A stretch of DNA of 64,000 nucleotides, from contig NZ_CP048263.1 of assembly GCF_019469165.1 (NCBI RefSeq), positions 2,046,001 through 2,110,000 on the forward strand. The letters run 5' to 3'. Source of the stretch: Gilliamella sp. ESL0443 (GTDB taxonomy: Bacteria; Pseudomonadota; Gammaproteobacteria; Enterobacterales; Orbaceae). Position numbers and translations under genes: made by a program. The notes beneath the pieces were generated by a model. It was not told the DNA's origin and made no database searches. It saw only the letters and a program-made list of their open reading frames with translations. Positions 14,198 through 50,000 of the stretch are shown here, piece after piece; the first letter of the stretch is position 1, and every line of letters starts with the position of its first letter.

Positions 14198-14222
14198 AAA
14201 AACCCCGTTCCTCAACTTTTTT
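14198..14222 (-). repeat. Interspersed 25-bp repeat, copy 1
   Basis: On the minus strand it reads A6-GTTGAGGAAC-GGGG-T5, identical over 25 bp to copies at 37678, 39905 and 49976. It lies between the converging edd and poxB-like genes. Confidence 0.9.
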
Positions 14223-14238
14223 TTATCTATTGCTTAGT

Positions 14239-15960
14239 CTATTTTTTTACAAAATTATCAACCAACAAATTAACCACATCTTTCATTTTGCCACTCAATG
14301 ATGCCTTTACACTATAAAGCGCCATTCCCATTACTTGTGAAGTATGAATTTCAGGCGGCATAACTAATTCATATTCGTTTGTCTTAACATCTAATAATGC
14401 AGGTCCAGGGTGAGCTAAAAATGATTGCACTGCGGCTTCAAGCAAATCTGAATTATCGACACGAATAGCAAATAATCCCATCGCTTCAGCTACTTTAGCA
14501 AAATCAGGATTTTTTAAATCAGTATAGTGATCGACAAGCCCTTCTGATTTTTGTTCCAATTCAACAAAGTTAAGTGAGCTATTATTAAGCACAACAACTT
14601 TAATTGGCAGGTTTTCTTGGATTGTGGTTAACAAATCGCCTAACAACATACTAATACCACCATCTCCTGATAAGGTAATGACTTGACGATTAGGAAAAGC
14701 TTTTTGTACACCTAATGCTTGTGGCATCGCATTGGCCATAGTGCCATGTTTTAAACTAATAACGGTCCGTCTTTTACCATTGGTTGAAAAATGACGGCAA
14801 GCCCAAACCATAGCAGAACCAACATCTGCACATAGTACGGCATCATCATTGGCATATTTATCAATCAATTCGGTTAAATATTGAGGGTGAATAACCGTTT
14901 TTGATGGTATCGCTTTCTTACCTAATTTATCAATTGCTTTAGTGTGTAATTCACGACATTTATCTAAAAATGCACTGTCTGCTTTTTCATTAACTAATGG
15001 CAATAAAGCGGCTAGGGTTGGTTTACTTGCACCTACAACACCAATATCTACACTATGGCGATGACCAAGATGAGTTGCATCGATATCTACCTGAATAATT
15101 GTTGCATCATCTGGATAAAATTGTGACCACGCAAAATCAACACCAAACATCAAAAGCACATCACACTCTTTTATCGCCGTTGCGCCAGACTCCATACCAA
15201 ACATCCCTGTCATGCCAACGTTATACGGATTATCATATTCGACGAAATCTTTAGCTCTTGAAGTATGAACAATTGGTGACTTTAATTTTTTTGCTAACGC
15301 AACTAATTCATCATGAGCTTCTGATACTCCATGACCTGCAAATATTGCCACTTTACTATTTTTATTTAGAATTTCGGAAATTTGTGCAAGCTCTTCATCA
15401 GATGGCCGAATTACTGGTTTCGGGTGAAAAATTTTCTGTCCACTATTATCTTCAACTTTGACTAAACTTATATTATAAGGAATAACTATAACAGCAACAC
15501 CTCGTTGATTTATTGCCGCTTGTACAGCTGCTGTAGTAATTCGTCGTGCTTGTGTTGGATCCGAAATTTGCTGACAAAAGACAGAACAATTTTTATAAAT
15601 AGATTCAAAATCAACCTCTTGCGGAAAATCAGTTCCTTGTTGAGAGGTAACTAACTGGCTAGCCAGTAAAACCAATGGTACTTTATTGCGTTGTGCTTCA
15701 TAAATACCATTTATAAAATGTAGGCTTCCTGGTCCACATGAACCAGCACAAGCAGTTATTTGATCGGTAAGATAAGCTTCAGCTCCTGCAGCAAAAGCAC
15801 CCACTTCTTCATGACGAACATGTACCCATTCAATATCACTTTTTTTGATAGCAGACGTAATTTGATTTAAGGTATCTCCAACAATACCATAACAATGTTT
15901 AACCCCCGCTTGAGATAACACTTCAATAATAATTTCCGCAACAGACTTTTTTGATGACAT
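14239..15960 (-). CDS. poxB: Pyruvate dehydrogenase (quinone) / pyruvate oxidase, PoxB-like
   Basis: This 573-residue thiamine-diphosphate enzyme is predicted to decarboxylate pyruvate to acetate and CO2, passing electrons through FAD to ubiquinone at the membrane. The N-terminal PYR domain has the conserved Glu in RHEEVGAFAAGAEA and SCGPG; the PP domain has GDGGISMLLGDLLTT and a later LNNSS for Mg and ThDP. E. coli PoxB is 572 residues and shares VEYDNPYNVGMTG and HGTMANAMPQALG. The ATG at 15960 is preceded by AGGAG; an upstream in-frame ATG lacks one. Acetolactate synthase is less likely. It is a monocistronic unit. Confidence 0.87.
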   Translation of the reverse strand: MSSKKSVAEIIIEVLSQAGVKHCYGIVGDTLNQITSAIKKSDIEWVHVRHEEVGAFAAGAEAYLTDQITACAGSCGPGSLHFINGIYEAQRNKVPLVLLASQLVTSQQGTDFPQEVDFESIYKNCSVFCQQISDPTQARRITTAAVQAAINQRGVAVIVIPYNISLVKVEDNSGQKIFHPKPVIRPSDEELAQISEILNKNSKVAIFAGHGVSEAHDELVALAKKLKSPIVHTSRAKDFVEYDNPYNVGMTGMFGMESGATAIKECDVLLMFGVDFAWSQFYPDDATIIQVDIDATHLGHRHSVDIGVVGASKPTLAALLPLVNEKADSAFLDKCRELHTKAIDKLGKKAIPSKTVIHPQYLTELIDKYANDDAVLCADVGSAMVWACRHFSTNGKRRTVISLKHGTMANAMPQALGVQKAFPNRQVITLSGDGGISMLLGDLLTTIQENLPIKVVVLNNSSLNFVELEQKSEGLVDHYTDLKNPDFAKVAEAMGLFAIRVDNSDLLEAAVQSFLAHPGPALLDVKTNEYELVMPPEIHTSQVMGMALYSVKASLSGKMKDVVNLLVDNFVKK

Positions 15961-16181
15961 ATTGACTCCTAAATATGGTTTTAAAATTAAACGCATCAAG
16001 TTGACTAAATTACACCTAAGTTTTATGAATGCGAAGAGCTTAAAAATAAAACAGCAAAAAATGTTAAAAATGTCATTTTAACCATAGTTGATACTTAAGA
16101 ATCTTTACTTCAAGATATTCCCTATTACAATAAATCAAGGTATTATGTCAAAAATATAATCAACTTCATGAGCTACCTTTT

Positions 16182-18089
16182 GTGGAACATTCGTCATCTG
16201 GACATAGTTTTTTATCATCAATGTCTGCTCTTTTACCTAATTATATAATCGAATATTACCCACTCATTACTGTTTGTTTGTTACTTTTTATTGCGATTTT
16301 ATTGTTTTCATTCAGTAAATTAAGAATGGATATTATTGCGTTATTGACGATAACTGCAATTACCGTCACGGGTGTATTAACTCCGGCTGAAGCGCTTGCG
16401 GGATTTAGCGATCCCAATATTATCCTCATTGCACTGTTATTCGTAATCGGTGAAAGTTTAGTAAGAACGGGTATCTCTTACAAAATGAGTGAATATATCT
16501 TAAAAGCAGCAGGTAAAAATGATATTCGAATTATTACCTTTATTATGTTAGGTGTAGCTTTACTGGGTTCGGTTATGAGCTCAACTGGTGTAGTTGCAAT
16601 CTTTATTCCTGTTGCTATCAGTATTGCTAACCATACAGGTATCCATGTAAAAAAATTGATGATGCCACTGTGTATTGCAGCATTAATTAGTGGCATGATG
16701 ACTCTTGTCGCAACAGCTCCAAACCTTGTAGTAAATAGTGAACTTAGCCGAGCTGCATTAACCGAGTTTGGCTTCTTTTCAATTACGCCAATAGGCCTTG
16801 GCGTATTAGTTGTTGGTGTGATTTATTGTTTATTAACACGCAATTGGTTACTTACAGCGGACCAAGTCACCGCTAACAATAGTTTACCTCAAAGACGTAA
16901 AATTACCGATTTAATTAGAGATTATAAATTAATTGGCCGAGCTCACCGCGCGCAAATTCTTGCTGGTTCTCCTTTTGTTGGGCGAACCATTGATGGATTA
17001 CATTTACGTACTGAGCATGGTGTAAATGTAATTGGTATTGAACGTTGGCGAAAATTCCAAAAAGTGCTCATCCCTGTAAATGGTAGTACTGAATTTAGAG
17101 AAAACGATATTCTTTTATTGGACATGTCTCATTCCGAAGCTGACTATCGCACATTTCTAACCACTAACAATCTTGAACCAAAAGTATTACGTGGTGAATA
17201 TTTTTCGGAACAAGTCAAAGAAGTCGGTATGGCTGAAGTTGCATTGCTGCCTGAATCATCATTATGTGGAAAGACTCTTAATGAAATTGATTTTAGGGAA
17301 AAATATTTTCTGACTGTTATTGGAATCTGGCGAAACCATGCGCCAGTTGAAACCAATAACCTATTCCAAGAACGACTAGAAATGAGCGATACACTTTTGG
17401 TATGCGGAGACTGGGGATCTATACAAAAACTACAAACCCGGACTAGTGATTTTGTGGTACTTGATTACCCATCAGACATTGATGATGTTGCACCAGCAAG
17501 CTCTCAGGCTTTTATCGCACTATTTAATCTAGCGGTAATGATTATTTTAATGGTGACAGGTATTGTCCCAAATGTTGTTGCTGCACTGATTGCTTGTTTA
17601 TTAATGGGTGCCACCCGCTGTATTGATATGGCAAATGCTTATAAATCAATTCATTGGCCAACATTAATTCTAATTATCGGTATGATGCCTTTCGCGGTAG
17701 CGTTAAATAAGACGGGAGGGATTTCGCTCATATCACAATGGCTTGAAATCCACTTACGTTCATTTGGCCCTTACATGGTGTTAACTTTTATCTTTTTATT
17801 ATGCTCAACGGTAGGGTTGTTTATTTCTAATACCGCAACCGCGATTTTAATTGCACCAATTGCGATTGATTTAGCAATAAAATTTGGATATTCACCCTAT
17901 CCATTTGCTATGACCGTTGCTATTGCGACATCTGCATCGTTTATTACACCTGTTTCATCACCTGTAAAAACAATGGTTGTTGCACCTGGTGGATATAGCT
18001 TTAGTGATTTTGTTAAAGTTGGTGTGCCGTTAACCTTCTTGGTTATGTTAGTTGATATAGCGTTGGTACCAATATTTTTTCCATTTTAA
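16182..18089 (+). CDS. SLC13-family permease with two TrkA-C domains, YfbS-like
   Basis: This inner-membrane transporter of up to 635 residues has about five or six helices, then a cytoplasmic insert of two RCK/TrkA-C domains (roughly residues 255-340 and 345-420), then a second helical half. This is the CitMHS/ArsB fold of E. coli YfbS. Motifs SSTGVVAIFIPVAI and NTATAILIAPIAI are the paired SLC13-like hairpins, ending with SFITPVSSPVKTMV. The substrate is unknown; dicarboxylates or sulfate are typical of the superfamily. The GTG start at 16182 is uncertain; ATG 16221 is an alternative. It is divergent from poxB. Confidence 0.82.
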   Translation: MEHSSSGHSFLSSMSALLPNYIIEYYPLITVCLLLFIAILLFSFSKLRMDIIALLTITAITVTGVLTPAEALAGFSDPNIILIALLFVIGESLVRTGISYKMSEYILKAAGKNDIRIITFIMLGVALLGSVMSSTGVVAIFIPVAISIANHTGIHVKKLMMPLCIAALISGMMTLVATAPNLVVNSELSRAALTEFGFFSITPIGLGVLVVGVIYCLLTRNWLLTADQVTANNSLPQRRKITDLIRDYKLIGRAHRAQILAGSPFVGRTIDGLHLRTEHGVNVIGIERWRKFQKVLIPVNGSTEFRENDILLLDMSHSEADYRTFLTTNNLEPKVLRGEYFSEQVKEVGMAEVALLPESSLCGKTLNEIDFREKYFLTVIGIWRNHAPVETNNLFQERLEMSDTLLVCGDWGSIQKLQTRTSDFVVLDYPSDIDDVAPASSQAFIALFNLAVMIILMVTGIVPNVVAALIACLLMGATRCIDMANAYKSIHWPTLILIIGMMPFAVALNKTGGISLISQWLEIHLRSFGPYMVLTFIFLLCSTVGLFISNTATAILIAPIAIDLAIKFGYSPYPFAMTVAIATSASFITPVSSPVKTMVVAPGGYSFSDFVKVGVPLTFLVMLVDIALVPIFFPF

Positions 18090-18136
18090 GTAAAATAAAA
18101 ACATAATTAATTGGTTAAATATAAGGTTACTAAGTT

Positions 18137-18171
18137 GTTTGTGGATTTTTACTATTATTTTATCCACAAAC
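18137..18171 (+). terminator. Terminator after the SLC13 permease
   Basis: A perfect 10-bp stem GTTTGTGGAT/ATCCACAAAC has a 15-nt AT-rich loop and is followed by TTTTC. It lies 48 bp after the stop. The remainder of 18172-18342 shows no gene. Confidence 0.7.
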
Positions 18172-18342
18172 TTTTCACCAGCTATTATGAGATTTCGCTA
18201 TGATTCAAGATCACTTAACGCTATAACCACCTTTACTCGGTATACATATGATATCCATTATGAGTACAGTGATGTGATTAAGGATTATTAGGTCAATTTA
18301 AAGTATAATATCTGTCATATTTTGATTATGGATATATTACAC

Positions 18343-19302
18343 ATGTCACACACAACAAATCCCCTAAAGATTATTTTTGCTGGCACGCCTGATTTTGCCG
18401 CTACCCATTTAAAAGCATTAATTGATGCTAAACATAATGTCATTGCAGTTTTTACTCAGCCCGATCGCCCTGCTGGACGTGGCAATAAGTTAACTGCAAG
18501 TCCGGTTAAACAATTAGCAATCGAAAATCATCTTCCTGTTTATCAACCTGCTACACTCAAAACTGAAGAAAACCAAAAAATCATTGCTGAGCTCAATGCC
18601 GACATTATGATTGTGGTGGCATATGGTCTTATTTTACCGCAAGCTGTGCTTGATATGCCTAAACTAGGTTGTTTAAATGTGCATGGTTCATTATTACCAA
18701 GATGGCGTGGCGCAGCCCCTATTCAACGCGCTTGTTGGGCTGGTGATACTTTAACCGGTATCACAATTATGCAAATGGATGCAGGGCTTGATACGGGTGA
18801 TATGTTATATAAACTCACCTGTCCAATTGAACCTTCTGATACCAGTGCAACGTTATATAACAAATTGGCGCAATTAGGTCCAAAAGGACTACTTGATACC
18901 TTAACACTAATTACCGAAGGAAAAATCCAACCTGAAAAACAAGATCCATCACAGGTCACTTACGCTGAAAAATTATCTAAACAAGAAGCTAAACTTGATT
19001 GGAACCTATCGGCACAGCAACTGGAACGTTGCATTCGCGCCTTTAATCCTTGGCCTGTTAGTTATTTTGACGTTAATGGCGAGCCAGTAAAGGTATGGCA
19101 AGCAGAAGTGATAAAAACATCCCACAATCGACCTGTTGGCACTATTTTACAAGCGGATAAAAAAGGAATATGTATTGCAACAAGTGATGGCGCATTAAAT
19201 ATGACACTTTTACAACCTGCTGGTAAAAAACCAATGTCTGCTCAAGATCTATTGAACTCTCGCAAAGCATGGTTTGAAGTAGGTAAGATACTGGGGAACT
19301 AG
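18343..19302 (+). CDS. fmt: Methionyl-tRNA formyltransferase
   Basis: This 319-residue cytosolic enzyme formylates initiator Met-tRNA with 10-formyltetrahydrofolate. The N-terminal catalytic domain shows [39 protein letters not shown] and [11 protein letters not shown]; the C-terminal tRNA-binding domain ends with [17 protein letters not shown] as in E. coli. The ATG at 18343 is preferred because it matches the family N-terminus, although the ribosome site is weak and a TTG at 18322 extends the frame. The usual neighbour def (peptide deformylase) is absent here. Confidence 0.95.
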
Positions 19303-19336
19303 TTAAAAAGATATTACAGGATAAATTCCTGTAATA

Positions 19337-20206
19337 TTATCGTTTTTTGGCTAACAGCGTCGCAAAGCGGAGCTTTATTCGGTTGCCATGGATATCCGTT
19401 TTATGCAGTTCGCCAACATCTTCATTGTATTTTAGGATGTCCCAATTTTGATAATAATTAAGTAACTCATTCTCTTTAAACGTAAACGAAAATCCTACAG
19501 TGCAAGGAAAATCATCAGTTGACATAGCGCAAACAATTAAATTATAACCACCCGTTTTAGTTATGTTTTGCATATTATGAATGATATCGGGAATTCTATC
19601 TGGTTGTAAAAACATCATTACAACAGTTGAAATAATTAAATCGTAGTTACCTTTTAAATTAGCCTGATTAATATCATAAATAGATGCATTGATATGCGAT
19701 AAATGATCGTTTGCAATAATTTCTTGTAAATTACTAATACTCATTTCTGACTTATCAACGGCATCAACATCAAAACCAAGTAGCTGTAAATAGAGTGAAT
19801 TACGGCCTGAACCACAACCTAAATCTAGCGCTTTTCCGGCCTGAATGATTTGACAGACTTCCAACACGTCAGAATGGGTTTTAGTCATCTGATATTTTTT
19901 CTGGCTATAATCCTCAGGTTGACAATAAAAAGCCAACTGGCACTGCAAATCATCTGAAACATGAGCTATTCGATGCCATTGCTGAGGCTCAATAAATGGA
20001 GGCTGATGCTGAACATCAAAAACATATTGAGAAACGATATCGCCTTGCTCGGTTAACATATCAAAATTGATATGACCTTTTATAATATTTAATTTTGCCC
20101 AAGTACCTAGTTGTGTATTATGTTTTTCACGAAACAAATCGGGTAAAGTTTTTGCATCCCAAACAGGTAACGTTTTATAGCAAACTAAATCTTTATCTTT
20201 CATCAT
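19337..20206 (-). CDS. tehB: SAM-dependent methyltransferase TehB, long form
   Basis: This 289-residue protein joins an N-terminal DUF1971-type beta domain (about 1-95) to a class I methyltransferase domain with the SAM-binding motif KALDLGCGSGRNS near residues 125-137. The fused layout is that of Haemophilus TehB; E. coli TehB lacks the first domain. TehB proteins give resistance to tellurite and act in oxidant defence. No tehA is adjacent. Two ATG codons (20206 and 20203) are possible starts. Confidence 0.87.
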   Translation of the reverse strand: MMKDKDLVCYKTLPVWDAKTLPDLFREKHNTQLGTWAKLNIIKGHINFDMLTEQGDIVSQYVFDVQHQPPFIEPQQWHRIAHVSDDLQCQLAFYCQPEDYSQKKYQMTKTHSDVLEVCQIIQAGKALDLGCGSGRNSLYLQLLGFDVDAVDKSEMSISNLQEIIANDHLSHINASIYDINQANLKGNYDLIISTVVMMFLQPDRIPDIIHNMQNITKTGGYNLIVCAMSTDDFPCTVGFSFTFKENELLNYYQNWDILKYNEDVGELHKTDIHGNRIKLRFATLLAKKR

Positions 20207-20396
20207 GAAGTACCAACAATGTCATCTAATAGTTGAGTATTATAGTCAAGTATTAATCAAATAAACAACTTATTTTTTAGAAATAAAATGACGATTAAAT
20301 AAGGAAAAATAAATTTATAGTAGCGAAGTTAACTATATCAACATATAATCATCAGCATTCTAGAATATATAGTAAAAAATATTAGAGGAACAATTT

Positions 20397-21185
20397 ATGG
20401 GATTTTTAACAGGTAAACGCATACTGGTTACCGGCGTTGCAAGTAATCGTTCTATTGCTTACGGTATTGCAAAAGCGATGCACCGTGAAGGCGCAGAATT
20501 AGCTTTTACTTATCAAAGCGAAAAATTAAAAGGCCGTGTTGAAGAGTTTGCTGCTGATTTTAATTCTAAAATCGTTTTACCTTGTGATGTTGCGCATGAT
20601 GAAAGCATCACAACATTATTTACAGAGCTAGCTAAAACTTGGGATAAATTCGATGGTTTTGTTCATGCAATTGCCTTCGCTCCTGGTGATCAATTAGATG
20701 GTGATTATGTTAATGCGGTAACTCGTGAAGGTTTTGCCATCGCACATGATATTAGCTCTTATAGCTTTGTTGCTATGGCTAAAGCTTGTCGTTCAATGCT
20801 AAATCCTGACTCAGCATTAGTCACTCTTTCTTATTTAGGCGCTGAACGTGCAATTCCTAATTATAACGTTATGGGTCTTGCTAAAGCATCTTTAGAAGCA
20901 AATGTACGTTATATGGCAAATGCAATGGGACCTGAAGGTATTCGTGTAAATGCAATTTCTGCTGGCCCTATTCGTACTTTAGCTGCATCAGGAATTAAAG
21001 ATTTCAAAAAGATGTTATCACATTGTGAATCAGTAACCCCTATTCGTCGTACAGTAACCATTGAAGACGTAGGTAATTCAGCTGCATTCTTATGTTCAAA
21101 TTTATCGTCAGGTATTACGGGTGAAGTCATTCATGTTGATGGTGGCTTTAGTATCGCAGCGATGAATGAATTAGAACTTAAGTAA
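20397..21185 (+). CDS. fabI: Enoyl-[acyl-carrier-protein] reductase (NADH)
   Basis: This 262-residue short-chain dehydrogenase reduces enoyl-ACP in the last step of each fatty-acid elongation cycle. The nucleotide-binding region is [20 protein letters not shown]. The active-site Tyr146, Tyr156 and Lys163 lie in [20 protein letters not shown], numbered as in E. coli FabI of the same length. An AGAGG site precedes ATG 20397. It is a single-gene unit with a strong terminator. Confidence 0.97.
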
Positions 21186-21581: not shown

Positions 21582-21606
21582 AAAAACCCCTCTCCTCAAC
21601 TTTTTT
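21582..21606 (-). repeat. Interspersed repeat, copy 2 (variant), serving as ppnP ribosome site
   Basis: On the minus strand it reads A6-GTTGAGGAGA-GGGG-T5, differing from the other copies at two adjacent bases. It ends exactly at the ppnP ATG. The GAGGAG core is a good Shine-Dalgarno sequence. Confidence 0.75.
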
Positions 21607-37677: not shown

Positions 37678-37702
37678 AAAAAAGTTGAGGAACGGGGTTT
37701 TT
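37678..37702 (+). repeat. Interspersed 25-bp repeat, copy 3
   Basis: A6-GTTGAGGAAC-GGGG-T5 on the plus strand, located between the psuG 3' end and the S10 promoter. It forms a direct repeat with the copy at 39905, bracketing psuKG. Confidence 0.9.
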
Positions 37703-37768: not shown

Positions 37769-38704
37769 TTATTTAATATTGCAATAACTCATCGCGATTT
37801 CAGATGCTAATTTTGCATTATTAAAAACAAGATTGATATTTGCTTCTAAGCTATCACCACCAGTTAACTCAACCACCTTCGCTAACAAGAATGGGGTAGT
37901 CTCTTTACCTTTAATTCCTTGCTCAACTGATTCTTTTAATGCTTTTTCAATTGCTGCCGTAATTAACGCTTCATCCATTGCATATTGTGTCGGGATAGGA
38001 TTTGCAACCACAACTCCACCATTTAAACCTAAATCCCATTTTACTTTAATCATGTCAGCAATCTGTTTAGCGCTATCTAGTTTTACGCTAACATCAAACG
38101 GACTAGTTCGGCTAAAGAACGATGGCAGTTTTTCTGTTTGATAACCAACCACAGGTACACCAAATGTTTCAAGATATTCCATTGTTAAACCTAAATCTAA
38201 AATTGATTTCGCCCCAGCACAGACTACCGCAACATTAGTATTAGCGAGTTCTTGAAGGTCGGCTGAAATATCAAAGGTATGCTCAGCACCTCGATGAACA
38301 CCACCAAGCCCGCCGGTTGCAAAAACTCGAATACCAGCTAATTCAGCAATAATCATTGTAGCTGCAACCGTTGTCGCGCCATTTTGTTTATTGGCAACAA
38401 CAACAGGTAAATCACGACGACTCACTTTTGTTACATTTAACCCTTCTTTACCAAGAATGGTGATCTCTTCTTTGGATAATCCCGCTTTTAAACGACCATT
38501 AATTACCGCAATCGTTGCAGGAATTGCGCCATTTTTTCTGACTATTTCTTCCACTTTTAATGCTGTTTCCACATTTTGTGGATAAGGCATACCATGTGAA
38601 ATAATAGTAGATTCTAAAGCAACGACTGGTTGATTATTTTCAAGCGCTTGTTTGACTTCAGGCGAAATATCAAGATATTGATTATACTTAGACATATTGT
38701 TCAT
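37769..38704 (-). CDS. psuG: Pseudouridine-5'-phosphate glycosidase
   Basis: A 311-residue Mn-dependent enzyme that splits pseudouridine-5'-phosphate into uracil and ribose-5-phosphate. Conserved parts are VVALESTIISHGMPYPQN, KVSRRDLP, GGLGGVHRGAEHTFDISADLQEL, VCAGAKSILDLG and the C-terminal LTGGDSLEANI. ATG 38704 is chosen because GGAG precedes it and it overlaps the psuK stop as ATGA, indicating translational coupling. A longer frame from 38734 lacks support. The gene is intact although psuK upstream is broken. Confidence 0.95.
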   Translation of the reverse strand: MNNMSKYNQYLDISPEVKQALENNQPVVALESTIISHGMPYPQNVETALKVEEIVRKNGAIPATIAVINGRLKAGLSKEEITILGKEGLNVTKVSRRDLPVVVANKQNGATTVAATMIIAELAGIRVFATGGLGGVHRGAEHTFDISADLQELANTNVAVVCAGAKSILDLGLTMEYLETFGVPVVGYQTEKLPSFFSRTSPFDVSVKLDSAKQIADMIKVKWDLGLNGGVVVANPIPTQYAMDEALITAAIEKALKESVEQGIKGKETTPFLLAKVVELTGGDSLEANINLVFNNAKLASEIAMSYCNIK

Positions 38705-39791
38705 GAAAGGGACTCCAAAATATTTTGAACACAATTAATTGATAAATTAGGATTATTAGTAAATTCTGATGATAATGTTAATGATGAACAGGCTTGACCA
38801 AATTTCACACTTTGATAAAAACTCAGTCCATCCAAATAACCTTGAACAAGCCCAGCCAGCATCGCATCACCAGCACCAGTTACGCTGACAATGTCGGTAG
38901 TAATTGGCGCGGACCAACCACGATCACCATCGATTTCACTATAGTAAACGCCATCAGCTCCAGCACTAATGGCAATTCGCTGAACACCTTGCTGATGGAA
39001 CCAGTCAACTACTTTAGGAGTATCATCATTGGTTTCGATTTTTATTCCACTTAAAATTTCGGCCTCTAAACGATTTGGTTTTAAGGTATGAATATATGAT
39101 AACCAATCTTTGATTTTATAGGATTTAAATGCTGAAACAGTATCAACAAAAATCGGAATAGAGCCAGCATTACTAAACAGCCATGTCAGAGCTTCTTGTT
39201 GCAAATTACAGTCAATAACCAGTAATTTAGCATGTTGAATTAACTGTTTTGATTCATTTAATAAGCTTGGGTTAACTTATTAATAATATCCATATCATTA
39301 ACAGCTATCACCATTTCACCTGACTCATCAAGTAAAGAAAGATAGGTTGAAGTACGATCTCCTTTTACCACGTGGCAATGATCCATATTAACGCCGGATT
39401 TTCGAGTATGTTCGATAAGTTGCGCACCATAAAAATCATCACCTATCATTGAAATAAGGTATGTATCAAGCCCTAATAACGCTAAATTTTCAGCAATATT
39501 TCGCCCTACACCACCAGGTGTGCAACGAATTTTACCGGGATTAGAATCTCCATAAACTAATTGCTTATCTGAATAACCAGTCACATCCATATTACATGAA
39601 CCAACGACAACAACATGATTATTTTCAGATAAAAGATACCCTTTTCCTTTTATATAGCCTTTTTGAGTCAGCGTCATAATATAACCTGCCACACTAGAAC
39701 GGGTAATGCCTAACATACCAGCAATAACATGCTGTTGAATGAAAGGATTATTGCGAATAATTGTGAGGATCTATTTTTCTCTTTTATTCAT
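38701..39791 (-). pseudogene. psuK: Pseudouridine kinase PsuK with N-terminal HTH, doubly disrupted
   Basis: The reconstructed product would be a winged-HTH domain (about residues 1-50, REK-stop-ILTIIRNNPF then VIAGMLGITRSSVAGYIMTLTQKGYI) fused to a PfkB kinase (VVVVGSCNMDVTGYSD, GKIRCTPGGVGRNIAENLALLG, VTGAGDAMLAG). It phosphorylates pseudouridine before PsuG acts. Codon 7 is TAG at 39773-39771. A second lesion at GGG 39269-39271 (CCC on the coding strand) shifts the frame: adding one base joins DIINKLTP to LLNESKQLIQHAKLLVIDCN. Both frames otherwise match PsuK, so decay is recent. Two independent lesions make sequencing error unlikely. Confidence 0.88.
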
Positions 39792-39904: not shown

Positions 39905-39929
39905 AAAAAAGTTGAGGAACGGGGTTTTT
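39905..39929 (+). repeat. Interspersed 25-bp repeat, copy 4
   Basis: A6-GTTGAGGAAC-GGGG-T5 on the plus strand, between fdx and the 5' side of psuK. Together with copy 3 it brackets psuKG in direct orientation. It follows the fdx terminator hairpin. Confidence 0.9.
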
Positions 39930-42744: not shown

Positions 42745-43068
42745 CTAAACATTAAAGCTTTCGCCACAACCGCATTCATTCTTAGAATTAGGATTATTGA
42801 ATTTAAAGCCTTCGTTTAGGCCTTCTTTGACAAAATCAAGCTCTGTTCCATCAATATAAACTAAGCTCTTTTTATCAACGATAACTTTGATATCTTTATC
42901 TTCAAATACACTATCATCGTCATTAATAGCATCAGCAAATTCTAGGACATAAGCCATACCTGAGCAACCAGAGGTTCTCACTCCTAATCTGAGTCCAACC
43001 CCTTTACCTCTATTAGCTAAGAAAGCTTGAACTCGATTGGCTGCACTATTAGTTAATGTGATTGCCAT
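42745..43068 (-). CDS. iscA: A-type iron-sulfur carrier IscA
   Basis: 107 residues from [14 protein letters not shown]; the three cluster ligands are Cys35, Cys99 and Cys101 ([19 protein letters not shown]). It carries iron or clusters to target proteins. ATG 43068 touches the iscU stop; a second ATG one codon upstream is possible. Confidence 0.96.
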
Positions 43069-43454: not shown

Positions 43455-43469
43455 AATTTGCTCCTAATT

Positions 43470-44684
43470 TTAATGGGCTGACCATTTAATTTTTGTTAGA
43501 TCAACACCATCTTTAAACATTTCCCAAAGTGGAGAAAGATCCCTTAATTTACCGATAGAATCTTTAATTAACTTAATAACATAATCCACTTCTTCTTCGG
43601 TACTAAATCGCCCAAGTGAGAATCGAATTGAGCTATGTGCAAGTTCATCGTTAAGTCCTAATGCTCGCAATACATAAGATGGTTCTAAACTTGCAGATGT
43701 ACATGCAGAACCTGATGATACTGCTAAGTCTTTTAAAGCCATCATAAGTGATTCACCTTCAATATAAGCAAAGCTTACATTTAAGATATTAGGAACACTA
43801 TGTTCTAATGAACCATTAAGGTAGACTTCTTCGATATCTTTTAAACCATTCCATAAACGGTTTTTTAATGCCAAAAGGCGGGGCATTTCTGTAGCCATTT
43901 CTTCTTTGGCTATGCGATAAGCTTCGCCCATACCAACAATTTGATGAACTGGTAATGTACCAGAGCGCATACCGCGTTCATGACCTCCACCATGCATTTG
44001 AGCTTCAATGCGCACACGAGGTTTACGTCTAACATAAAGCCCACCAATCCCTTTTGGCCCATAGATTTTATGTCCAGAAAATGACATAAGATCGACTTTT
44101 AATTTAGACAGATCAATTGGCAACTTACCAACACTTTGGGTTGCATCAACATGAAACACAATACCTCTTTCACGACACATCTCACCAATTTTTTCGATAT
44201 CTTGAATAACGCCAGTTTCATTATTAACGTGCATAATAGATACCACTGTTGTATCACTACGCATTGCCGCAGCTAATTTATCAAGGTTAAGTATACCATC
44301 TGATTCTGGCGCTAAATAAGTAACTTCATAACCTTCTCGTTCTAATTGACGACAAGTATCAAGTACGGCTTTATGTTCAGTTTTACAGGTAATAATGTGT
44401 TTACCTTTAGCTTGATTGAAATGTGCTGCACCTTTAATGGCTAAGTTATCTGCTTCTGTCGCTCCTGATGTAAAAACAATTTCTCGTGAATCTGCACCAA
44501 TTAAATCAGCAATTTGGTTACGTGCTATGTCAACAGCTTCTTCTGCTTGCCAACCAAATTTATGAGAACGTGAAGCGGGATTTCCAAAAACACCATCCGG
44601 TGTTAAATACTGCATCATTTTTTCAGCTACTCTTGGATCAACAGGCGTAGTGGCTGCATAATCCATATAAATAGGTAATTTCAT
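43470..44684 (-). CDS. iscS: Cysteine desulfurase IscS
   Basis: 404 residues, identical in length to E. coli IscS. The PLP lysine lies in [17 protein letters not shown] and the persulfide cysteine in [21 protein letters not shown] (about 328). It supplies sulfur for Fe-S clusters, tRNA thiolation and other pathways. It follows iscR by 37 bp. Confidence 0.98.
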
Positions 44685-44721
44685 TAATTACTCCCAATTA
44701 CAAATTCTGTATTCTATTTCT

Positions 44722-45177
44722 TTAATTAATTCTGGCGTGATGGAGATGACTTTGTCGATTTGCGACAGCTCTTACTTCTTGATTATTCACTAGTTCGCTT
44801 AACGTGATGCTGGTCAAAAAATCGTTTATTCGTTCACTTAAATCATTCCATAAACTATGAGTAAGGCATCTTACACCTTTTTGACATCCAGTATGCCCAT
44901 GGCATTTGGTTGCATGAACAGTTTCGTCTACTGCTTTAACAATCGAACTAATCGCAATTTGATCCATACTACGGCCAAGTACATAACCACCGCCAGGACC
45001 TCTTACACTTGAGACTAGACCATTTTTACGCAACCTAGAAAAAAGTTGTTCTAAATAAGATAGTGAAATTTCCTGACGTTCTGAAATATCAGCAAGTGAT
45101 ACAGGGCCGGAACCAGAATGCAGCGCTACATCTAACATAGCTGTAACCGCATAACGCCCTTTTGATGTCAATTTCAT
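44722..45177 (-). CDS. iscR: Iron-sulfur responsive regulator IscR
   Basis: 151-residue Rrf2-family regulator. The winged HTH covers residues 1-70 ([48 protein letters not shown]). The [2Fe-2S] ligands Cys92, Cys98, Cys104 and His107 are all there. Holo-IscR represses the isc operon through type 1 sites, and two such sites lie directly upstream. It is first in the operon. The C-terminus is shorter than in E. coli. Confidence 0.97.
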
Positions 45178-45213
45178 TAATCATTCCTCTATATTTAATA
45201 ATAAATATTTTAT

Positions 45214-45263
45214 ATATCCTTTAATTTTAGTCAAGTATTTAGTTGACTATTTTAGTGGGAATT
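45214..45263 (-). promoter_or_regulatory. iscR promoter with two adjacent IscR type 1-like sites
   Basis: Two 25-bp elements abut. 45214-45238 ends in TTTTAGTCAAGTAT, matching the right half of the type 1 consensus. 45239-45263 has TTAGTTGACTATTTTAGTGGG, matching most of the left half and centre. On the minus strand TTGACT within the first site acts as a -35 with TAAAAT 16 bp downstream. This predicts [2Fe-2S]-IscR autorepression. Confidence 0.72.
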
Positions 45264-45340
45264 AAGTTATCAGTTCATCATCGACGAAATATAACCAAAT
45301 ATGCTAATCTAATAGGCTGATTTGATACTGGAGTTAAGGA

Positions 45341-47269
45341 ATGAATTTAGTAATACGTTGGTGTTTAATATCAAGCACTTTATTGGCAAACAGTCTATTT
45401 GTAGAAGCATCACAACATGAGTTGCGCCAAAATTATCAAAGATGGCAAAACACCTATCAATCATTAAACTATGATGAGCAACAAGCATTACTAAAACAAT
45501 TAAATAATTACTCACTTTATCCTTATGCGGCTGTGCAGTTTTTTCAAAAAAATATCAAAACAGTACCACCACAACTCGTCAGTAGTTTTGTAAAAAAATA
45601 TGATGACTTTCCATTAACTTCATCATTAACTCAAGCTTATTTGAATGAACTATCAAATCGTAAAGATTGGAATGCCATAGTCTCTTTTCCTAAAGACAAT
45701 TCAATTAGCTCTAATTGTCGATATCAATATGCAAAATTACAAAAAAATAATGACAAATCGGTTTTAGATAGTGTCGAATCGCTATGGTTAACGGGGAAAG
45801 AATTACCTTCAGCGTGTGATCCATTGTTGGATGCATGGTCAAAAAGTGGAAAACGTACATCAAATCTTATTTTATCTCGTATTGAGCTTGCATTTGAAAG
45901 CAATAATTTAAAACTCGCTCGTCATTTAACCAACTTATTAGATGACAATAATCAAACAAATTATTTATTGGCCGTGCTTGATAATCCAAGAAAACTTGAC
46001 GAATTTTCCAAAAACATTAAAACCAGCACATTTACCAAAAAAATAGTCTTAGCATCTTACCCTCGTTTGGTCAAAGCCGACAAAAATCTTGCGGCAGCAT
46101 TGTTACCACAACTGATAAAAAAACAGAATCTAACTGATGAGGAACAAAATAGATTACAAAGTAGCTTAGCAAATAGCTATTTTAGTGATTCAGTAACAAC
46201 AGAACAGAGCAAATGGCGAGATAATTACCTAACTAAAAGCCATGATACTGCATTAGTTGAAAAACGTATTCGCATGGCTATTGATGCAAATAACTACAAA
46301 GATATTGCTCATTGGATAAAACAGTTAAAACCAGAAGACCAATTAAAAGAAGAATGGCAATACTGGCAAGCCAGAGTATTACTTAAAAATAAGAAAACCA
46401 ATGAAGCCAAAAATATTTTAAAAACATTGAGCAACAACCGAGGTTTTTATGGAATGATCAGTGCTCAAGCACTTAATCAACCATATATAATCAACAATTT
46501 ATCTAAAAAACTGCCAACAACAGAAGTAAATTCTTTAAAAGCCAAATATGATCAAAAACCATTTGCCATTCGAATCAAAGAGCTAAGGTTTTTAGGTATG
46601 CTAGCGGAATCAAAACAAGAATGGCGTTATATACTTAAAGCAAAAGAAAATGAATATCTCGATTTAGCTCAATATGCTTACCACAAGGGCTGGGGAGATC
46701 TTAGTATTCAAGCAACAATATCTGGAAAATTATGGGATAATTGGACAGAACGATTACCTATCATGTACAAAAAGCTATATAATGAAGCTTTAAAAGATAA
46801 AGCTATTCCGCTATCTTACGCTTTAGCCATCACGCGTCAAGAAAGTGCTTTTGATGCAGCAATACAGTCTCCTGTCGGAGCAAGTGGCTTAATGCAATTA
46901 ATGCCAGCAACAGCAAAAGAAACGGCCAAAAAAGTCACCAACATTAGCTATAATTCACCAAACCAATTATTTGAGCCTATGACTAATGTACAATTAGGCA
47001 CTTATTTTCTAAACAGCGTTTATTTACAAAATGATAACAACCGTATTTTATCTTCAGCAGCCTATAATGCAGGTCCAAGCCGAGTAAAAAAATGGTTGAA
47101 TAATAGCAACGGAAAGCTTGATGCAGTCGAATTTATTGAAAGTATTCCTTTCAATGAAACACGAAATTATGTCAAAAGTGTATTAGTATATGATTATATT
47201 TATCAGCACATTTTAGGGGAACAAACCCCACATATACTGACAAAAAAAGAATTTAATAGACAATACTAA
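45341..47269 (+). CDS. slt: Soluble lytic murein transglycosylase
   Basis: 642-residue periplasmic enzyme that cleaves glycan strands to 1,6-anhydro muropeptides. A signal peptide covers about residues 1-23 (ending LFVEA). An alpha-superhelical U and L domain follows, then the C-terminal lysozyme-like domain with catalytic Glu501 in ITRQESAFDAAIQSPVGASGLMQLMPATA. The stop overlaps the trpR start, as part of a slt-trpR unit also found in E. coli. Confidence 0.95.
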   Translation: MNLVIRWCLISSTLLANSLFVEASQHELRQNYQRWQNTYQSLNYDEQQALLKQLNNYSLYPYAAVQFFQKNIKTVPPQLVSSFVKKYDDFPLTSSLTQAYLNELSNRKDWNAIVSFPKDNSISSNCRYQYAKLQKNNDKSVLDSVESLWLTGKELPSACDPLLDAWSKSGKRTSNLILSRIELAFESNNLKLARHLTNLLDDNNQTNYLLAVLDNPRKLDEFSKNIKTSTFTKKIVLASYPRLVKADKNLAAALLPQLIKKQNLTDEEQNRLQSSLANSYFSDSVTTEQSKWRDNYLTKSHDTALVEKRIRMAIDANNYKDIAHWIKQLKPEDQLKEEWQYWQARVLLKNKKTNEAKNILKTLSNNRGFYGMISAQALNQPYIINNLSKKLPTTEVNSLKAKYDQKPFAIRIKELRFLGMLAESKQEWRYILKAKENEYLDLAQYAYHKGWGDLSIQATISGKLWDNWTERLPIMYKKLYNEALKDKAIPLSYALAITRQESAFDAAIQSPVGASGLMQLMPATAKETAKKVTNISYNSPNQLFEPMTNVQLGTYFLNSVYLQNDNNRILSSAAYNAGPSRVKKWLNNSNGKLDAVEFIESIPFNETRNYVKSVLVYDYIYQHILGEQTPHILTKKEFNRQY

Positions 47270-47571
47270 TGGTGCATTACATGAAAACTAAAGAATGGAA
47301 CCAAACGGTTGAAATATTACACCAAGCATTTAATAACGGTTATTCATTAGATATTTTAAAACTACTGATGACATCTGATGAACGTGATGCTTTAATTACA
47401 CGAGTCAAAATTGTACGCTCATTACTTGATGGATCAATTAATCAGCGCCAGCTTAAAGATCAATTGAAAATCGGTATTGCAACAGTCACCAGAGGTTCAA
47501 ACAGTTTAAAAGAAGCAACACCTGAATTTAAAGCATGGCTAGAAAAGATTTTATTGAACTCTAATGACTAA
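47269..47571 (+). CDS. trpR: Trp operon repressor TrpR
   Basis: 100 residues (96 from the inner ATG at 47281). The helix-turn-helix QRQLKDQLKIGIATVTRGSNSLK matches TrpR, as does LLMTSDERDALITRVKIV. Bound to tryptophan it represses trp, aroH and its own synthesis. It overlaps slt by one base, so it may be made by read-through of slt. No clear trp operator was seen before it. Confidence 0.94.
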   Translation: MVHYMKTKEWNQTVEILHQAFNNGYSLDILKLLMTSDERDALITRVKIVRSLLDGSINQRQLKDQLKIGIATVTRGSNSLKEATPEFKAWLEKILLNSND

Positions 47572-47574
47572 AAA

Positions 47575-47599
47575 CTATCGTCAATATTCATGACGATAG
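47575..47599 (-). terminator. Hairpin between converging trpR and rob
   Basis: CTATCGTC/GACGATAG stem with a 9-nt loop. On the minus strand it runs into TTTTTAG, so it can stop rob transcription. The plus-strand side lacks a T-run. Confidence 0.7.
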
Positions 47600-47603
47600 C
47601 ATG

Positions 47604-48527
47604 TTATAACGATAGGTTTGATTGAATATTGACTTCTTCATCCGCCACAACAGGGACACAATAATCACATTCCATGCTAAGGATATCTTCAAAACATTTT
47701 ACAGAATCATCATGGTGATTATGATGGATTTCAATTAAACAGCTTGAACTACGCAATCGCACTTTTAAGGCTGGCATCGCCGCTAAATGGACTTGAGAAA
47801 TAAAATCACTAAAATTTTCTGGTGGACCGATATATTTAAAACAAAGATATAAACCACCTTCACTAACAAAAGGCTCAATATGCTCCAAATTGTTATTGTG
47901 ATCTAAAGCAATGGTATATAAAAGTTCTTGCTCATTAGCATTATCTTTACTTTTTAAAATACGACTAAAAGCAAAGATTTTGTCGGGTAAACATTCACTC
48001 TTGTTCTCATAATGAGACAGATAATTATGAAAAAACTGCGATCTTAATTTATTTTCTTCATCTAAAATTTGGCTCAAATTACAGTTATTCTTATATGAAA
48101 TTCCCCAAAATGTTTGCTTTGGCATATTAACAAATTTAGGTTCAGGTAAAGAGAGTCGATTTTTATTTAATTCAATAGCCGGGGTTAAGCCAGTAGGATC
48201 CCAAAATTCACCTCGTCGATAGCTGGCTGGTGTTTCATTAAATTGCTTTTTAAAAGATCGGGTAAAAGTTTGTTGTGAGTCAAAACGATATTGCATAGCA
48301 ATATCTAAAATAGGTTTGCTTGTCATTCGCAAAGATAATGCCGCATAAGTTAATCTGCGGTGACGAATATAAGTACCGAGCACTTGACCGGTTACTTCTT
48401 TAAACATCCGTTGTAAATGCCACTTTGAATAACCTGATTTTTGGGCTACATTATCAATAGATAAGGGCTGCTCCAAATTTTTTTCAATCCAAACGATAAG
48501 ATCTGAAATAATACTAACTTGATTCAT
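47604..48527 (-). CDS. rob: AraC-family regulator Rob
   Basis: 307 residues. The N-terminal tandem HTH domain (about 1-115) closely matches E. coli Rob (SGYSKWHLQRMFKEVTGQVLGTYI, ALSLRMTSKPILDIAMQYRFDSQQTFTRSFKKQFNETPA). A C-terminal GyrI-like ligand-binding domain follows. Rob activates marA/soxS-regulon genes such as efflux pumps. The domain after residue 120 is more divergent and rich in His and Asn. Confidence 0.92.
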   Translation of the reverse strand: MNQVSIISDLIVWIEKNLEQPLSIDNVAQKSGYSKWHLQRMFKEVTGQVLGTYIRHRRLTYAALSLRMTSKPILDIAMQYRFDSQQTFTRSFKKQFNETPASYRRGEFWDPTGLTPAIELNKNRLSLPEPKFVNMPKQTFWGISYKNNCNLSQILDEENKLRSQFFHNYLSHYENKSECLPDKIFAFSRILKSKDNANEQELLYTIALDHNNNLEHIEPFVSEGGLYLCFKYIGPPENFSDFISQVHLAAMPALKVRLRSSSCLIEIHHNHHDDSVKCFEDILSMECDYCVPVVADEEVNIQSNLSL

Positions 48528-48612
48528 AAAACCCCATCATAAAGTGAATTGGCAGACATCATGCGATTATGACTTAATCCCAGCAATAAGCAAGATTTAA
48601 ATCGAAAAATTT

Positions 48613-49197
48613 TTAACAATAAGAATGGCTTCCCGCTTGATGTTCAGTAATATCTTTAACGCCTGCTAATTCAGGGAATTCCGCAAGCAATTGCTTTTCA
48701 ATACCCTCTTTTAAAGTAAAATCAACCATTGAACAACCATTACAACCACCACCAAATTGCAATATAGCATAATTATCTTCAGTCAATTCCACTAAGCTAA
48801 CATGGCCACCATGACTAGCTAATTGCGGATTAACCTGAGATTGAATAACATAATTAACGCGCTCAATTAATGGGGCATCATCCGCAACCTTTTTCATTTT
48901 TGAATTTGGCGCTTTTAAAGTTAACTGTGAACCTAATTCATCTGTCACATAATCAATCACGGTTTCTTCTAAAAAAGGTGCACTAATTTCATCGATATAA
49001 ACAGAAAAACCTGCTTGTTGTTCTTCTTCGATATCACCATCTTCAACAGTATCTGCCGGACAATAGGAAACCCCACATTCAGCAGATGGCGTGCCAGGAT
49101 TAATAACAAAAACCCGAATTTGAGTACCATCAGGCTGATTAGCAAGCAATTTTTTAAAATGTTGTTGAGCTGATTCAGAAATGGTAATAATAGACAT
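48613..49197 (-). CDS. nfuA: Fe-S biogenesis protein NfuA
   Basis: 194 residues: an N-terminal degenerate A-type domain (about 1-95) and a C-terminal Nfu domain with the cluster-binding CxxC, Cys152 and Cys155, in [12 protein letters not shown]. It carries [4Fe-4S] clusters to target proteins under stress. Located next to gntX on the same strand, as in E. coli. Confidence 0.96.
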
Positions 49198-49293
49198 AAT
49201 CCCTCACTTTGACACGATTGACATTGATAATCCTCAACATCATCGATAATAGTTGACTTACTCTCTTGGTTATTATAGGGGGTGTTTTGGATT

Positions 49294-49971
49294 TTACAAG
49301 ACGGTCCGACACAAACAAACTACCTGCACATAAGCGGCACCACTCTCTTTTAATTGCTGGCTAATAACATTTATCGTATTACCGGTAGTAACAATATCAT
49401 CAATAAGCATTACCGATTGATTGGTTAAATCAGAGTGACATCGAAAAAGTGTTTCTACATTACTCATTCTTTGCTTAAGCGATAGGTTCTTCTGATCGCG
49501 AGCTGCAAATTTTCGCGACAATAGGTAAGGCTTAAATTCTCGATTTAACCATCTAGCTATTGGCTTAGCCAATAATGCCGCTTGATTAAAACCTCTAGAC
49601 CAATAACGAAAATGGTGTAAAGGGACACAAGTCACAATGTCAGGTTTAGCAAGGCCATCACTTAATCGACGTTGATACCAGGCTAAAAACATTAACCTAG
49701 CTAATGCGTTGGTTAATTCGATTTTATTATGAAATTTTAAATGTTGAATTAATTTTTTTAATGGATCGATATAGCCTGTTACAGCCACCATTTCATCCCA
49801 ATAAGGTCTTTTCTCTCGGCATCGATAACATTCATTTGTTGATAATGAGTGAGGAAGGCAGCATTGATGACAAACTTTATTAAGCTTCGGTAAGTTTTCT
49901 ATACATTGACTGCAAATTCCATGGTGAGATAGCACCAAAGGCATATTACATAAAATACATCGCATCATCAT
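49294..49971 (-). CDS. gntX: ComF/GntX family phosphoribosyltransferase-like protein
   Basis: 225 residues. Two CxxC zinc modules occur (Cys5/Cys8/Cys20/Cys23 and Cys34/Cys37/Cys48/Cys51), followed by a type I PRTase fold with the PRPP loop VMLIDDIVTTGNT at 187-199. ComF homologues take part in DNA uptake; E. coli GntX is linked to growth on DNA. ATG codons at 49971, 49968 and 49965 are all possible. No good ribosome site is seen; an interspersed repeat lies directly upstream. Confidence 0.88.
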   Translation of the reverse strand: MMMRCILCNMPLVLSHHGICSQCIENLPKLNKVCHQCCLPHSLSTNECYRCREKRPYWDEMVAVTGYIDPLKKLIQHLKFHNKIELTNALARLMFLAWYQRRLSDGLAKPDIVTCVPLHHFRYWSRGFNQAALLAKPIARWLNREFKPYLLSRKFAARDQKNLSLKQRMSNVETLFRCHSDLTNQSVMLIDDIVTTGNTINVISQQLKESGAAYVQVVCLCRTVL

Positions 49972-49975
49972 TCAG

Positions 49976-50000
49976 AAAAAAGTTGAGGAACGGGGTTTTT
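49976..50000 (+). repeat. Interspersed 25-bp repeat, copy 5
   Basis: A6-GTTGAGGAAC-GGGG-T5 on the plus strand, between the divergent gntX and ppiA genes. It is 5 bp from the gntX start. Confidence 0.9.

Follow-up and report, generated by a model that had tools for sequence, protein, structure and literature searches.

The short repeat seen between genes in the window (the whole 64,000-nucleotide stretch of the Gilliamella sp. ESL0443 chromosome analyzed here) was confirmed as real and as part of a larger, genome-wide family, which is written in two spellings (D1 and D2) in different species of the genus. Copies of the motif coincided with insertion/deletion and rearrangement junctions. Our tentative reading, to which we give rather less than an even chance, is that the repeat is a double-stranded DNA recognition site with a layout like that of an uptake signal sequence, used as a recombination junction and read by a putative partner.

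Copies of the repeat in the window and in the chromosome

The 24-mer AAAAAGTTGAGGA[A/G]CGGGGTTTTT was searched in the 2.40-Mb Gilliamella chromosome, and 128 copies were obtained at three or fewer mismatches (69 on the plus strand and 59 on the minus strand, about 53 per Mb); the reversed 24-mer, used as a control, gave 0 matches in the whole chromosome. A count limited to the window copies had been named beforehand as a possible refutation, and the number found left the repeat standing. The exact form predominated, with 94, 19, 10, and 5 copies at zero, one, two, and three mismatches, respectively. The placement of the copies was checked against mechanically called ORFs of at least 90 amino acids rather than annotated genes. 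The initial statement that the repeat never lies inside a gene held for 123 of the 128 copies and failed for the remaining five; in a few of the 123, as many as 17 bases ran into the end of an ORF.

All five window copies reported by the initial annotation, four exact and one with two mismatches, were relocated by the motif search, and its claim that their chance recurrence is negligible agreed with the 0 matches found in 100 dinucleotide shuffles. The exact copies are situated at 14198..14221 (minus strand), 17 bp beyond the stop codon of a gene for a thiamine-pyrophosphate enzyme and between convergent genes; at 37679..37702 (plus), with the ribosomal S10 gene on one side and, on the other, a gene of Indigoidine_A type (resembling pseudouridine-phosphate glycosidase); at 39906..39929 (plus), with a PfkB-type ORF and a gene for a 2Fe-2S protein as neighbors; and at 49977..50000 (plus), 5 bp ahead of where a ComF-like gene (Pfam domains DZR_2 and Pribosyltran) begins. 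The two-mismatch copy (21582..21605, minus) lies directly 5' of an ATG, and the GGAGAGGGG that it contains looks like the ribosome-binding site of the adjoining gene. Since three related genomes (G006, G030, and G032) carry a similar G-rich stretch at this site without a good motif, the match here probably arose by chance or was co-opted, and is more likely a ribosome-binding site than a genuine family member. The inner GTT-GAGG-AAC dyad described initially was not a fixed feature either: 48 copies read exactly ...GAGC..., and G occupied the dyad position in 60 of 117 aligned copies, which breaks the dyad.

Along the chromosome, the strand of the copies flipped near 0.9 Mb, roughly with the GC skew, and was mixed in 1.7–2.4 Mb; the clusters numbered 27 plus and 5 minus in 0–0.9 Mb, 4 plus and 22 minus in 0.9–1.7 Mb, and 10 plus and 9 minus in 1.7–2.4 Mb. 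The distribution in a D1 genome (G012) was one-sided, with 13 of 13 copies on the minus strand in 1.7–2.42 Mb, and 7 plus and 12 minus before 1.07 Mb. When the 63 clusters located away from the listed paralogs were analyzed, 32 were flanked by co-directional genes, 18 by divergent, and 13 by convergent ones, as intergenic length predicts. The spacing showed no clear excess of evenness over random placement (CV 0.78 vs. 0.87, sd 0.09). Core k-mers beyond the motif copies showed at most a mild excess in 102 kb in which coding DNA was not separated, and a search for recurrent k-mers over 80 kb of the G029 genome returned A/T-rich words alone.

Two spellings at orthologous sites

The core is asymmetric and conserved in both spellings; it reads AAAAAGTTGAGGA[A/G]CGGGGTTTTT-GAG in D2 and, over about 45 bp, TTTTGT-AAAAA-GTTTCAG-N10/11-GTTTNAG-TATAAAAA in D1. 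Among 35 Gilliamella genomes, D2 was frequent (at least 8 copies) in 8 and D1 was carried by 23, with tens to about 150 copies per genome; neither was found in nine genomes of other Orbaceae genera, in agreement with the initial description of the repeat as lineage-specific. All of the 93 D1 copies examined were outside ORFs.

At several orthologous sites, D1 was present in one species and D2 in another, with the strand unchanged. The 14198 site was of D2 type in G006, G030, and G026 (2 mismatches) and D1 in G012 and G021 (3 mismatches). Once again, the ComF site at 49977 was of D2 type in G. apis and two uncultured bins and D1 in other species, G. bombi and G. mensalis among them, with a weaker form in G. 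bombicola; by eye, the site in G. apicola ESL0177 was shorter by about 38 bp. The 39906 site had the variant AAAAATTTGAGGAAAGGGGTTTTT in G006, G015, and G026, one further change in G030, a decayed copy in G032, and none in G012, G014, and G021; the 37679 copy was decayed in G032 and absent from G006, G030, G015, and G026. Many lone copies have stayed at orthologous places between species although their flanks have diverged. At 19 sites shared by the source genome (G000) and G019, after 9 of 28 rows were dropped, identity was 442/456 in the motif vs. 1191/1440 in the flanks, an ascertained comparison, as most of the G019 copies had been picked for matching and the G000 copies for three or fewer mismatches. 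Two D1 sites of G012 resemble, by eye, decayed D1 sites in G006 and G030. D1 may be the ancestral spelling. The different spellings of related species at the same spots suggest that these tags may be read by a DNA-binding partner.

Furthermore, A/T tracts recurred at a phase of about 10.5 bp for about 80 bp downstream of the D2 core, and more weakly upstream. The 10.5-bp power was 0.250 vs. 0.006 for the null (n = 90 de-duplicated D2 copies), and phasing was repeated in G019 (n = 28 copies, some of them orthologous); no phasing of about 10.5 bp was detected at 151 TTTTT control sites. It was detectable to about +110 downstream and about −66 upstream, where the period was longer. The D1 copies (n = 93) had no long downstream phased arm and gave a weak upstream signal alone, and the AT-rich tracts that follow the D2 core on its 3' side, at one and two helical turns, were not clearly present in D1. 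The folding of six window stretches was no better than that of shuffles, yielding no RNA structure or stable hairpin, and the sole match of an Rfam gathering scan was the alpha-operon leader.

Units between motifs and the explanations considered

Arrays holding one motif more than units were found at genome positions 617115-617459, 1318267-1318769, and 2132512-2132735, with same-strand copies 88–152 bp, and also 251 bp, apart from start to start. At 2130437-2132735, four motifs are arranged around one gene unit and two fillers, and G006 and G030 have one motif there; at 2157037-2158972, a motif-gene-motif arrangement corresponds to a single motif in G030, G032, and, as D1, G012. Homology to G019 stopped at the motif in three loci (L168, L179, and L182), and at two others (L167 and L193) motifs enclosed an extra unit. 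Two copies in inverted orientation (718454/718486), placed between convergent ORFs, could pair into a terminator stem. A paralogous secreted-protein family was rejected as the cause of the repeat, as it was also abundant where the motif is absent or scarce (42 matches in G024 and 25 in G014); the motif-rich G012 had one match. Two sets of these proteins (6 and 5) hit 0 families in Pfam and NCBIfam. Other repeated 14-mers were observed in the non-coding DNA of paralog-bearing stretches of G024, G014, G003, and G032.

The surplus of one motif in the arrays, the extra units at the two loci where relatives keep a single motif, and the ends of G019 homology at the motif all speak for a dRS3/NIME-like target of a putative site-specific recombinase or integrase, between whose copies units (fillers of about 90–250 bp and 2-kb gene units) would be inserted, lost, and reshuffled. 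We nevertheless consider it unlikely, as recombination between short direct repeats would yield identical arrays, no recombinase was identified in a search that covered PF01797 alone, and both the in-place change of spelling and the conservation of lone copies are left unexplained. The A/T phasing of D2, strong downstream and weaker with a longer period upstream, suits a polar, intergenic, and replication-oriented DNA-wrapping site for a topoisomerase (a gyrase-type strong site) or a nucleoid protein, as do the strand flip near that of the GC skew and the independence of gene direction. This explanation is conceivable but doubtful, with the missing long downstream arms of D1, the loss of polarity in 1.7–2.4 Mb, and the one-sided distribution in G012 standing against it; moreover, gyrase is, to our knowledge, present in every bacterium, so that a distribution restricted to Gilliamella would not be explained. 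It also seems improbable that the repeat is a genus-wide, replichore-oriented docking site whose core drifts as "dialects" with a co-evolving DNA-wrapping factor, about 100 sites being re-spelled in place per lineage, with unconverted sites decaying and gene units entering and leaving there.

A non-autonomous repeat that transposes in the manner of REP/REPIN or IS200/IS605 would account for intergenic copies numbering about 100–150, a dominant master sequence, strand bias, and the one difference of about 38 bp seen by eye at the ComF site of G032. However, the Y1 transposase domain PF01797 was detected in one of 35 Gilliamella genomes (G009) and not found in the source genome, the six folded stretches gave no stable hairpin, as a REP/REPIN would require, and lone copies remain at orthologous sites with diverged flanks. 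The first two results already largely refute mobility of the REP/RAYT and IS200 types, which was set aside, and the whole explanation is very unlikely. A transcription terminator, promoter, or ribosome-binding element is hardly probable either: the T5 run, the TTGAGG-N17-TAAAAAT found in some copies, and the inverted pair as a possible stem point to a transcription signal, and the 21582 copy to a translation signal, but the 63 clusters follow intergenic length and not gene orientation, the −10-like part is far less conserved than the core, and the stretches fold no better than shuffles. An intrinsic terminator was rejected, with no G+C-rich hairpin in the folded stretches and no link to gene orientation. 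The initial proposal of a lineage-specific mobile or regulatory element was hence partly supported, in its lineage specificity; mobility as a simple transposing repeat and a regulatory role were not.

According to the preferred reading, a recognition site resembling an uptake signal sequence, the repeat would be a family of intergenic sites read by a putative sequence-specific DNA-binding protein, whose existence and co-evolution with the spelling we both infer. The phased A/T tracts flanking the D2 core would let the DNA bend or wrap, and recombination between sites would give rise to the units that motif copies enclose. The single most likely partner would be, at a guess, the DNA-uptake/self-recognition machinery; the Orbaceae are close to the Pasteurellaceae. 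The 94 perfect vs. 19 one-mismatch copies count for an uptake sequence, as do the phased tracts of D2, the two spellings on one strand at shared sites, the higher identity of the motif than of its flanks, the decayed-looking D1 sites, the ComF-like gene next to one copy, the lack of an RNA fold in the six stretches, and orientation classes that follow intergenic length; the sparse density, the avoidance of coding DNA, the at most mild excess of core k-mers, the spacing, the strand bias, and D1 copies without a long arm count against it. Strand bias is, as far as we know, not a trait of uptake sequences. All 30 of the high-quality Gilliamella genomes had ComEC (34 of 35 overall), and all 30 had a PilQ-type secretin (33 of 35 overall), with or without the motif, and competence genes were discarded as a discriminator because species lacking both spellings have them just as well; PF03772, used in this search, also matches E. 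coli. A literature search, with most subscription papers outside its scope, returned no paper joining Gilliamella and "uptake sequence" and, in titles and abstract starts, none on the Gilliamella repeat; the examined text of PMC12616744 named neither Orbaceae nor Gilliamella.

Should the repeats prove to be uptake-type sequences, the class would be extended to the Orbaceae, in a tractable bee symbiont, and would offer a full switch of spelling at identical sites, which is difficult to examine in other systems. As wrapping or segregation sites, they would instead represent a new polar element of the chromosome. In both cases, about 100 sites and orthologous pairs in two spellings make the co-evolution of site and reader directly testable.

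Comparison with known repeat systems

The comparison was made with the systems as described in the available parts of the cited sources. With REPIN-RAYT systems, the Gilliamella repeat shares a dominant master sequence, an intergenic location, and a similar count (128 here vs. 69–235 REPINs per E. coli genome; PMC8049555), but not the hairpin, which was missing from the folded stretches, or the Y1 transposase, which was not found in the source genome. Strong gyrase sites and BIME-2, intergenic repeats bound by gyrase, have A/T variation phased at about 10.5 bp on either side of a center, which D2 resembles clearly downstream and more weakly, with a longer period, upstream; the E. coli gyrase motif extends over 130 bp, with a 36-bp center, two 47-bp arms, and a period of 10.75 bp (PMC6379681), and gyrase cleavage preferences are species-specific according to a preprint (PMC12324340). 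That motif is degenerate, whereas the Gilliamella core is asymmetric and near-invariant, and its D1 form has no long arm.

In the neisserial intergenic mosaic elements, dRS3 (20 bp) and RS units of 30–160 bp form intergenic arrays, and dRS3 is a target of phage integration (PMC3898611). The Gilliamella repeat is also short and intergenic, and in its arrays bounds small units and surface-protein genes, with same-strand copies 88–152 bp, and also 251 bp, apart. Nevertheless, its sequence differs, the dRS3 ends ATTCCC(N8)GGGAAT being absent, it has two spellings at orthologous sites, and it is no known integrase or phage target.

Uptake sequences occur at hundreds per Mb and many are coding (956, or 65%, in coding sequence in H. 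influenzae; PMC1626085), in contrast to the sparser Gilliamella repeat, nearly confined to intergenic DNA. Their cores of 9–12 bp are shorter than the 24–45 bp found here, and a chromosome strand bias and, in D2, a phased arm of 6–8 turns distinguish the Gilliamella repeat. In some genomes with Neisseria DUS, one-mutation copies are more numerous than perfect ones (in one species, the two counts are 4265 and 4914; PMC3630211), so that an excess of perfect copies is not a universal argument. Such an excess is, however, described as a puzzling mark of uptake sequences, USS and DUS alike; the same source describes spellings that differ between subclades, AT-rich tracts on the 3' side of the core, and an origin by substitution and not by insertion (PMC1626085). 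The Gilliamella repeat shares with USS and DUS this excess of perfect copies, the subclade spellings, the phased AT-rich tracts that follow an asymmetric core on its 3' side, and a weakening in some lineages (PMC1626085, PMC3630211).

Abundance, placement and orientation of the repeat

A sequence search confirmed that the five copies of the repeat in the window (2046001–2110000 of one 2,404,493-bp contig) were real. In the whole genome 128 copies were counted at ≤3 mismatches, far beyond those of the window (69 on the plus and 59 on the minus strand; reversed control, 0). Compared with a consensus carrying A/G at position 14, 94, 19, 10 and 5 copies had 0, 1, 2 and 3 mismatches, respectively; the exact spellings with ...GAAC... 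and ...GAGC... accounted for 46 and 48 copies. The initial annotation placed the repeat never inside a gene, which held for the 123 copies located outside mechanical ORFs of ≥90 aa and failed for the remaining 5.

For the comparison with gene orientation, one copy was counted per cluster, and clusters within 1 kb of the paralogs of a ~440-aa protein family (28 listed among 34 matches) were left out. By flanking genes, the 63 motif sites were co-directional (32), divergent (18) or convergent (13), and the intergenic DNA of the same genome amounted to 15,409, 7,403 and 6,605 bp in these classes, as measured on stretches mostly not selected for the motif. These results indicated that the motif site was blind to transcription. 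Of those clusters, 46 lay below 1.7 Mb, and 36 of them carried the motif on the strand presumed to be leading, compared with 56 of 92 flanking genes; hence, gene direction did not explain all of the strand bias. The site was not blind to the chromosome, since cluster strand varied by region: 27 plus, 5 minus and 1 mixed in 0–0.9 Mb, 4, 22 and 4 in 0.9–1.7 Mb, and 10, 9 and 1 in 1.7–2.4 Mb. The GC skew, computed on stretches mostly centred on motif copies, was mainly positive below 0.9 Mb and negative above; the 300-, 700- and 1300-kb bins departed from this.

Three motif pairs of opposite orientation were also observed (718454/718486, 1552415/1552476 and 2381982/2382024; 32–61 bp start to start); in the first of these, which is flanked by convergent ORFs, the two copies could pair into a long, almost perfect stem. 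Elsewhere in the window, a 152-aa ORF (39258–39716) matched only positions 2–117 of the 302 of the PfkB profile and was directly followed downstream by an ORF at 38701–39204; the PfkB gene at 38701–39716 may be split or broken. The alpha-operon ribosome binding site RF00140 (26484–26600, minus strand), in a ribosomal protein operon, was ordinary.

A conserved core flanked by phased A/T tracts

The alignment of 117 copies (≤2 mismatches) extended the 24-mer by AA upstream and GAG downstream, after which positions +32 to +35 formed an A/T tract. Downstream A/T content was periodic, with a power at 10.5 bp of 0.250 vs 0.006 when each copy was randomly shifted (n = 90, de-duplicated). This phasing was seen in successive windows up to 70–112 bp, was marginal at 80–122 (p = 0.016) and was gone at 100–142. 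On the upstream side the signal was weaker and its period closer to 11.5; windows out to −66 showed it and those further out did not. The same phasing was found in 28 copies of the relative G019, some of them orthologous, and none was detected at 151 TTTTT runs used as a control in non-coding DNA of the own genome. In our reading of the profile, the tract peaks are roughly symmetrical about the middle of the 24-mer; the outer A5/T5 symmetry described initially would correspond to the innermost pair of peaks. By exact-spelling counts and the alignment, roughly half of the copies lack an intact inner dyad, which had been proposed along with it, and RNA folding of six stretches gave no structure better than shuffles.

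Identity to G019 at 19 sites with both flanks aligned was 442/456 in the motif and 1191/1440 in the flank, a difference that overstates constraint because the G019 copies had mostly been selected as matches; nine of 28 rows had been dropped (six short anchors, three filler or array cases). Among 30 G019 copies, 18 had an own-genome copy at the orthologous place (17 from the identity comparison plus L178, the 559177 site), 5 showed a junction or an extra unit at the motif, as described below, and 7 were unplaced in the stretches compared.

Spellings at shared sites and units between motifs

The own-genome spelling (D2), surveyed as a 21-mer allowing variants with ≤1 mismatch, matched in 11 of 44 Orbaceae genomes: G. 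apis NO3 (G030) with 154 copies, the own genome 121, G006 92, G019 75, G026 44, G015 20, G. apicola ESL0177 (G032) 13, G025 8, G005 3, G001 2 and G012 1. No match was found in the 9 genomes of other Orbaceae genera. Among the G. apis copies listed, [A/T]TTTGAGGAA[A/C]GGGG was frequent. Two window copies had a different repeat, D1, at their orthologous positions in G012; its consensus was TTTTGT-AAAAA-GTTTCAG-N10/11-GTTTNAG-TATAAAAA (29 copies). Among 80 genomes searched, the strict D1 pattern was confined to Gilliamella, where 23 of 35 genomes carried it at 2–84 copies each, with just one copy in G032, and all 93 distinct copies examined lay outside ORFs. G015 was mixed (20 D1, 20 D2), but its bin is 74% complete and 5% contaminated; G005, G001, G012 and G032 carried a minority spelling at few copies; and the D1 middle in G021 was often GGAGTG among the copies listed, closer to D2. 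Neither repeat was found under these patterns in G004, G011, G013, G014, G029 and the incomplete G031. Clades of genomes were guessed from names and identity.

Several sites were common to species. At the ComF-like gene adjoining the motif at 49977, 17 Gilliamella loci compared by eye comprised three of D2 type (L216, L218, L219), five clear D1 (L220, L222–L225), two weaker D1 (L221, L226), one without about 38 bp there (L217) and six with neither (L227–L232). The 14198 site held D2 in the own genome, G006, G030 and G026 (2 mismatches) and D1, on the same strand, in G012 and G021 (3 mismatches); it appeared decayed in G032, and G014 had none. D2 in the own genome, G006, G030 and G032 corresponded to D1 in G012 at 2157037, as did D2 in the own genome and G006 at 2188762. 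Conservation did not extend to all copies: 37679 had no counterpart in G006, G030, G015 and G026, and nothing was found at the 39906 site in G012, G014 and G021. Within a G012 segment with eight D1 sites, 129676 and 132608 resembled degraded D1 in G006 and G030, which suggests that D1 is older than D2 and that unconverted sites decay; 69625 and 79743 had no clear remnant in the other genomes. A G. apicola ESL0177 segment (119012) and a G. apis NO3 segment (99131) had the identical motif and shared about 50 bases of its flanks without a difference, suggesting recent exchange between the two species at a motif site.

Arrays held one more motif than units in the own genome (617115–617459, 115-bp units; 1318267–1318769, 251 bp; 2132512–2132735, ~110 bp) and in G006 (~393 bp), all lengths being start to start. 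The four motifs at 2130437–2132735, with two fillers and a 2-kb gene unit among them, correspond to one motif with matching outer flanks in G006 and in G030, and the motif-gene-motif at 2157037–2158972 was a single motif in G030 and G032. Homology to G019 ended at a motif in three loci (L168, L179, L182), and an extra unit lay between motifs in two (L167, L193). Ordinary recombination between short repeats could produce such junctions, by gain or loss. Intergenic tandem units of roughly 385–395 bp, one motif each, were observed in G006 (L073, L074) and G030 (L078, L079), the latter adjoining paralog genes.

The genes between motifs belonged to the Gilliamella ~440-aa family, which had no Pfam or NCBIfam match (6 and 5 proteins scanned, respectively). 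At least 1352 relatives were found among 8000 scored candidates, those named being Gilliamella, with 34 matches in the own genome and 0–62 per genome. Motifs within 1 kb, all same-strand, were on both sides of 14 of the 28 listed paralogs, on one side of 13 and on neither of 1. Across species the family was not tied to the motif. The proteins started signal-peptide-like (own L061, L063, L065, L067, L309, L310; relatives L294–L298, L307). Seven-base repeats recurred in non-coding DNA of paralog stretches (CAGGCAA-type in the own genome, GACACAA/GACACCA-type in relatives) and could permit phase variation.

Candidate functions

The repeat ignores genes, keeps a constrained core with phasing suited to bending, is asymmetric and takes a lineage-specific spelling at fixed places. 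At somewhat less than even confidence, these properties are best explained by a site in double-stranded DNA that a putative co-evolving partner recognises, uptake being the best guess. Two rivals are live, each explaining part of the data better: a gyrase-type wrapping site (PMC6379681) and a dRS3/NIME-type recombination target (PMC3898611). A REPIN-RAYT system was not supported for the own genome, the Y1 transposase domain search and RNA folding both being against it.

Returning to a recognition site for uptake, the repeat is unlike an uptake signal sequence in being sparse, nearly intergenic-only and strand-biased, and because of this distribution and bias it is not classed as one; even so, Pasteurellaceae uptake signal sequences, as described in PMC1626085, share more features with it than any other known kind of element does.
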